Source: Pseudomonadota bacterium
GTDB taxonomy: Bacteria; Myxococcota_A; UBA796; GCA-2862545
Assembly: GCA_023954855.1 (NCBI GenBank)
Contig: JAGSGY010000044.1
Span: 1-43,799, forward strand
Direction: 5' to 3'
DNA: 43,799 nucleotides
Shown: positions 35,600 through 40,498 of the stretch, one piece after another
Layout: every line of letters begins with the position of its first letter
Position numbering within the stretch: position 1 is the stretch's first letter
Made by a program: the position numbers and the translations under genes
The notes under the pieces: generated by a model
The model's database searches: none
What the model saw: the letters and a program-made list of their open reading frames with translations, nothing else
Told to the model about the DNA's origin: nothing

Positions 35600-39784
<4,185 letters not shown>

Positions 39785-40123
39785 CAGGACACTCCTCTCA
39801 CTCGGGAGACGGCCGAACCGTCAGCGCGAGTGGCTCCGAGGGAAAATCGCTTGGTGGGGTCGCTCACGCGGGTGCGGTTCGCAGCGCGGAACACCTGGTC
39901 AACCCCGTTCTCTGAAGACAGAGAAATCCCGATCCGTGCGCGTGCGATGCCGCGGCCGGTTGTCGGGGATGGGGTGAACGAAATGTTCATGCGTGGGCGT
40001 GACCTGCCTGGGGTGGCTTACCGGCAATGGGTGCGAGCACCCGAATTCGCTCGTCAAACGACGAGCAGCCCACTCCACGACCGCCGGTAAGAGGCCGTGA
40101 AGTGGGCTTTACGTAGTCGATGA
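39785..40123 (-). promoter_or_regulatory. 339-base rplL-rpoB gap with interleaved (pseudoknot-type) stems
   Basis: No gene can be supported here. The promoter-distal part (39785-40016) shows a small hairpin, TTCTCT/AGAGAA (39908-39925), and little else. Just after rplL lies a dense structure at 40017-40108. AGCCCACT (40067-40074) pairs with AGTGGGCT (40101-40108). CTTACCGGC (40017-40025) pairs with GCCGGTAAG (40083-40091), inside the loop of the first stem. Two local hairpins sit between: GCTCGTC-AAAC-GACGAGC (40049-40066) and GGGTG-CGAG-CACCC (40029-40042 on the plus strand). In E. coli the same gap holds a partial terminator and an RNase III site, so a similar role in setting rpoBC against rplJL is likely. 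Confidence 0.6.
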
Positions 40124-40498
40124 CTACTTGACCTCGACCTCGGCGCCTGCCTCGACGAGCTGACCCTTGACCTGCTCGGCCTCCTCCTTGGAGACGGCCT
40201 CCTTGATCTTGGCCGGCACGCCTTCGACGAGGCCCTTGGCATCCTTGAGCCCGAGGCTCGTGATGGCACGGACCGCCTTGATAACGGCGATCTTGTTGCC
40301 ACCGAACGACGTCATGATGACGTCGAACTCGGTCTGCTCTTCGGCAGCTTCCGCGGCACCGCCACCAGCGGCGACGGCCACGACGGGGGCCGAAGCCTCG
40401 ACGCCGAGCTCGTCCTCAAGGGTCTCAATGAGGCCCTTGACTTCGGAAAGCTTGAGGTTCTTGATGTAGTCGACAACCTGGTCCTGAGTAACGGACAT
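40124..40498 (-). CDS. rplL: 50S ribosomal protein L7/L12
   Basis: Stalk protein, present in several copies, that recruits translational GTPases. The 124-residue product has an N-terminal dimerisation helix region ([20 protein letters not shown]), an Ala/Gly/Glu-rich hinge, and the C-terminal domain [20 protein letters not shown] with [14 protein letters not shown]. The ATG at 40498 has GGAGG at 5 bases; an upstream in-frame ATG at 40510 lies before the ribosome binding site and is rejected. Confidence 0.97.

Follow-up and report, generated by a model that had tools for sequence, protein, structure and literature searches.

An H-type pseudoknot predicted between rplL and rpoB in a bacterial rplJL-rpoBC mRNA

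The intercistronic region between rplL and rpoB in the 43.8-kb window (the whole stretch of DNA that was analysed, 43,799 nucleotides) is predicted to form a compact H-type pseudoknot in the rplJL-rpoBC mRNA of an uncultured bacterium of deltaproteobacterial/Myxococcota-like lineage, a reading to which we assign a probability of about 0.8 based on modelled folding and on comparison with related genomes. The cluster is located on the minus strand in the order rplJ, rplL, a 339-nt gap, rpoB and rpoC. The gap (39785..40123, minus strand) is without coding signature and is bounded by rplL, encoding bL12 (40124..40498, minus strand, stop codon ending at 40124), and by rpoB (35600..39784, minus strand, ATG at 39784), both assigned from their open reading frames and homologues. 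It exceeds the other gaps of the cluster, as had been pointed out in an earlier note made from the sequence alone. The ribosome-binding site of rpoB is located more than 200 nt downstream of the knot; a GGAG(U)-plus-CC-like sequence found directly before the rpoB ATG (39785-39800, minus strand) recurs across the order as well as in the window, and may possibly be a Shine-Dalgarno sequence only. A DNA search found the element in a single copy in its own genome, by which a repeat element was ruled out.

The first helix, S1, begins 15 nt past the rplL stop codon and comprises 16 bp in the transcribed (minus) RNA, two G-U pairs included. Its 5' arm AGCCCACUUCACGGCC (40093..40108, minus strand) pairs, from 40108 to 40093, with the 3' arm GGUCGUGGAGUGGGCU (40067..40082, minus strand). 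The first 8 nt of the 5' arm belong to the perfect 8-bp part of the helix (40108-40101/40074-40067), which was the stem originally recognized, while the remaining eight pairs include G-U pairs that are possible on the sense strand only. The loop of S1, UCUUACCGGC, contains the 5' arm of the second helix, S2 (CUUACCGGC; 40083..40091, minus strand), leaving an L1 of 1 nt and an L2 of 0 nt, and this arm forms a perfect 9-bp pairing with GCCGGUAAG (40017..40025, minus strand). The latter is located 41 nt downstream of S1, past two hairpins that lie in loop 3 (L3 = 41 nt): hairpin 2, GCUCGUC-GUUU-GACGAGC (40049..40066, minus strand, stem 40066-40060/40055-40049), and hairpin 3, GGGUG-CUCG-CACCC (40029..40042, minus strand, stem 40042-40038/40033-40029). 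The two perfect pairings of 8 and 9 bases, their interlocking and the two inner hairpins described in the earlier note were thus recovered at exactly the same coordinates, with the 8-bp stem extending to 16 bp through G-U pairs.

The earlier note had left the choice between an H-type pseudoknot and two mutually exclusive structures. Since S1 and S2 share no base, the two helices can coexist and do not compete; a switch between exclusive folds was therefore rejected, and the pseudoknot, in which the loop of one helix pairs outside that helix without shared bases, was retained. Its calculated energy is 12.2 kcal/mol more favourable than that of the best nested fold open to these bases, with a pseudoknot penalty of 9.6 kcal/mol included. 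The 16-bp S1 is joined to the 9-bp S2 by a 0-nt junction, so that coaxial stacking is possible. Spanning a 9-bp S2 with a 1-nt L1 is geometrically tight, which fraying of its terminal C-G pair would relieve; this pair is absent in the same-genus genome described below.

Structured RNA at this position brings to mind the attenuator that follows rplL in E. coli, and S1 or the knot might likewise stop or pause RNA polymerase before rpoB. The position is the same, the gaps are of similar length (339 versus 319 nt), the E. coli gap has a hairpin followed by U5, and U-rich tails occur after hairpins in the corresponding gap of some members of the order. However, a terminator-like site was looked for in the gap of the window and none was found, GCUCGUCG directly follows S1, and hairpins with a U-rich tail are lacking in the gaps of the pseudoknot-bearing genomes G000, G018, G020, G019 and G007. 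Because the U-tract is absent, S1 is not an intrinsic terminator of the E. coli type, and this candidate was rejected. Rho-dependent or pausing variants are possible, and a Rho-like gene, scoring below the family cut-off, is present in the host. Taken as a whole, we regard attenuation by the knot as unlikely.

It might also be argued that S1 and both hairpins are genuine, forming an ordinary hairpin cluster that acts as an RNase III or decay element, and that S2 is a chance complementarity. Hairpins are found after rplL throughout the order, and many gaps yield chance pseudoknots under our layout test. Within the window, however, this is the sole crossing pair of perfect Watson-Crick helices (at least 8 and at least 9 bp, within 120 nt). 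Dinucleotide shuffling of the gap produced such an interlock 33 times in 8000, and in an energy-ranked search for crossing helices none of 100 shuffles was as good. With S1, both hairpins and the site downstream kept fixed, 3000 permutations of the loop of S1 yielded two that paired equally well with that site, and 2000 foreign windows taken from other gaps yielded none. The folding z-score of the 119-nt region was -5.0 for the sense strand and -2.9 for the opposite strand.

Further evidence on S2 comes from the rplL-rpoB gaps of about 40 genomes of the order, read together with a wider Myxococcota sample. One genome of the same genus (G018), whose RpoB N-terminus is 89% identical, keeps 15 of 15 shared S1 pairs and eight of nine S2 pairs in an alignment based only on primary sequence; the S2 arms are identical at 15/18 positions, versus 38/67 outside S1 and S2. 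In S1 one pair has changed in a compensatory manner (U-A to C-G), and three other changes are one-sided, including A-U to G-U and C-G to U-G; because of these one-sided changes and of the G-U pairs in S1, the structure was assigned to the sense RNA. S2 displays one compensatory change (A-U to G-C) along with the loss of its terminal pair, and hairpin 3 is rebuilt with different bases. A two-sequence shuffle of this alignment gave a result that is not significant (137/500). The same layout was found in a second, independent genus pair, G020 and G019 (loci L078 and L051), in which both partners have changed in six pairs, including one pair of S2 (G-C to A-U); seven of 500 shuffles of the primary-sequence alignment reach this number. 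The compensatory changes that the earlier note had proposed to look for in relatives are thus present in both helices and in two genus pairs. They are few in S2, which contributes a single event per genus pair, and random placement of substitutions does as well (P of about 0.12 and 0.15).

Beyond these pairs, the same order of parts recurs with unrelated sequence in the nearest other genus (G013, locus L008), which is sister to the genus of the window in the RpoB tree (99/96), and in G007 (L009), while a version with one hairpin instead of two was found in G024 (L041). The S2 loop permutations gave 5/3000, 163/3000 and 66/3000, respectively, for these three loci, in which S1 was selected jointly with S2, that is, with the pseudoknot in mind. 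In the six two-hairpin genomes, which represent four genera, the 3' arm of S2 is offset from S1 by 41, 41, 47, 50, 51 and 53 nt. In four genomes the pseudoknot is favoured over nested folds by 7-12 kcal/mol, and in G013, G007 and G024 it is of roughly the same stability as these. All these genera belong to one well-supported family clade of the RpoB tree (100/99), in which four further genera (g2, g5, g10 and g13) are without a convincing pseudoknot. When 63 genomes of the order were searched with a covariance model built from two sequences, hits above noise were confined to G000 and G018, and remote homologues were therefore judged by layout. Applied to 79 gaps, this layout test is too permissive for individual cases beyond the near family to be taken as proven. 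Between genera the element cannot be aligned by MAFFT, and cross-genus covariation is not countable on an unbiased alignment. No relatives were found in the viral collection. Support for S2 from these sequence comparisons is good, resting on few genomes; with the helix retained in both genus pairs and one compensatory change in each, we consider its origin by chance complementarity quite unlikely.

Several other gaps of the order deserve mention. The two contigs of G013 that carry an rplL-rpoB junction, C162 (L008) and C630 (L047), hold two different loci, which the RpoB tree places in separate clades, for which reason this bin is probably contaminated. Four loci of family f4, genus g21 (L022, L025, L026 and L029) share a different common element in the same gap, GGGUCCUGACGGGCCGGC...GCCGGAGCAAGACCC, whose inner hairpin varies. 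In genus g22 of that family, the gaps of L030 and L031 contain GAUGAGAC/GUCUCAUC versus GAUGGGAC/GUCCUGUC, an A-U to G-C compensatory change, and an independent pseudoknot is possible there. At the start of the gap of L024 (G052), inspection by eye revealed a strong hairpin closed by a G-run and a C-run and followed by U6, a candidate for an intrinsic attenuator similar to that of E. coli in another family of the order.

A different role for the fold would be that of a regulatory receptor, in which the knot binds a protein (bL10-bL12 or beta/beta') or a ligand and switches the expression of rpoBC. Its complexity is in line with such a role, and so is its position in an operon that in E. coli displays autogenous control of both rplJL and rpoBC (PMC10931766). 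Against this, S1 and S2 do not exclude each other, the rpoB ribosome-binding site is remote from the knot, and Rfam returned no match. In addition, the loops show no sequence conservation between genera, an argument against a ligand pocket and against a protein with sequence specificity, and we find the receptor very doubtful. A small protein encoded in the gap and coupled to rpoB, with the structure as a by-product, is highly improbable: a 68-codon ORF (39784-39990, minus strand) reaches the rpoB start through a TGATG overlap and is matched in G018 by an ORF of 51 codons in the same frame, but the pseudoknot is located upstream of it, the protein alignment needs many gaps, and the coupled ORF was rejected since substitutions are spread evenly over the codon positions (13, 13 and 16).

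For the pseudoknot itself we propose a mechanical role, as the sequence varies between genera while the fold stays, which speaks for mechanics rather than for the recognition of some ligand or of one particular protein. S1 would form right after the rplL stop codon, its loop would pair 41-53 nt downstream to form S2 and thereby enclose the two small hairpins, and the two helices would stack end to end over about two helical turns in the genus of the window. The resulting compact knot would mark the point where the rplJL half of the mRNA gives way to the rpoBC half, and there it could block 3'-to-5' exonucleases behind rplL and so protect this 3' end, and/or, in the genus of the window, offer an RNase III site on the stacked S1-S2. 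Together the two helices provide roughly one to two turns of double-stranded RNA, as expected of an RNase III site, and are shorter in other genera; host genes for RNase III and PNPase are present. Abundant bL10/bL12 and scarcer beta/beta' might in this manner be made from one operon. This function, an intercistronic element that sets apart the fates of the rplJL and rpoBC mRNA, is put forward tentatively, at a little short of even odds. By analogy with E. coli, the balancing of ribosomal-protein and polymerase expression at this junction is plausible. A broader version, in which a lineage-wide pseudoknot class defined by shape only actively sets polymerase-to-ribosome gene expression and replaces the terminator-type attenuator, for example through stalling or release of RNA polymerase or through sensing of beta/beta', seems to us rather improbable.

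Among known systems, Rfam scans of the window at gathering and relaxed thresholds returned no family matches, so that the other possibility raised at the outset, a known RNA family covering the same bases, does not apply, and a search of the open-access literature found no report of a pseudoknot at the rplL-rpoB junction. Two catalogued motifs are comparable by name. The Lacto-rpoB motif (RF01709) is a conserved structured RNA linked to rpoB, and is restricted to the Lactobacillales (PMC2864571); the L17 downstream element (RF01708) is a structured RNA located 3' of a ribosomal-protein gene (PMC2864571), though of another gene and in Lactobacillales and Listeria, and neither has a match in the window. 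With H-type pseudoknots in general the element shares two stems, a loop arm that pairs downstream, short L1 and L2 and a long L3; it differs in that L3 bears two hairpins and in that S1 is long (16 bp) in the genus of the window. The closest parallel is the rplL-rpoB region of E. coli, which occupies the same gene junction with similar length, has structured RNA directly after rplL, is an RNase III substrate (PMC2777011) and contains an attenuator (PMC4670729), and which is thought to set ribosomal-protein expression apart from that of the polymerase (PMC4670729, PMC2777011). If the pseudoknot solves the same problem in another lineage, it is the position that would be conserved and not the mechanism, and the element would represent an uncatalogued, shape-conserved RNA of a kind missed by sequence-based family searches. 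Whereas the E. coli hairpin is followed by U5, the element described here has no U-tract and the loop of its hairpin forms a pseudoknot with a site further downstream, which would make it a new RNA element of the rplL-rpoB intercistronic region, one in which a pseudoknot takes the place of the terminator.
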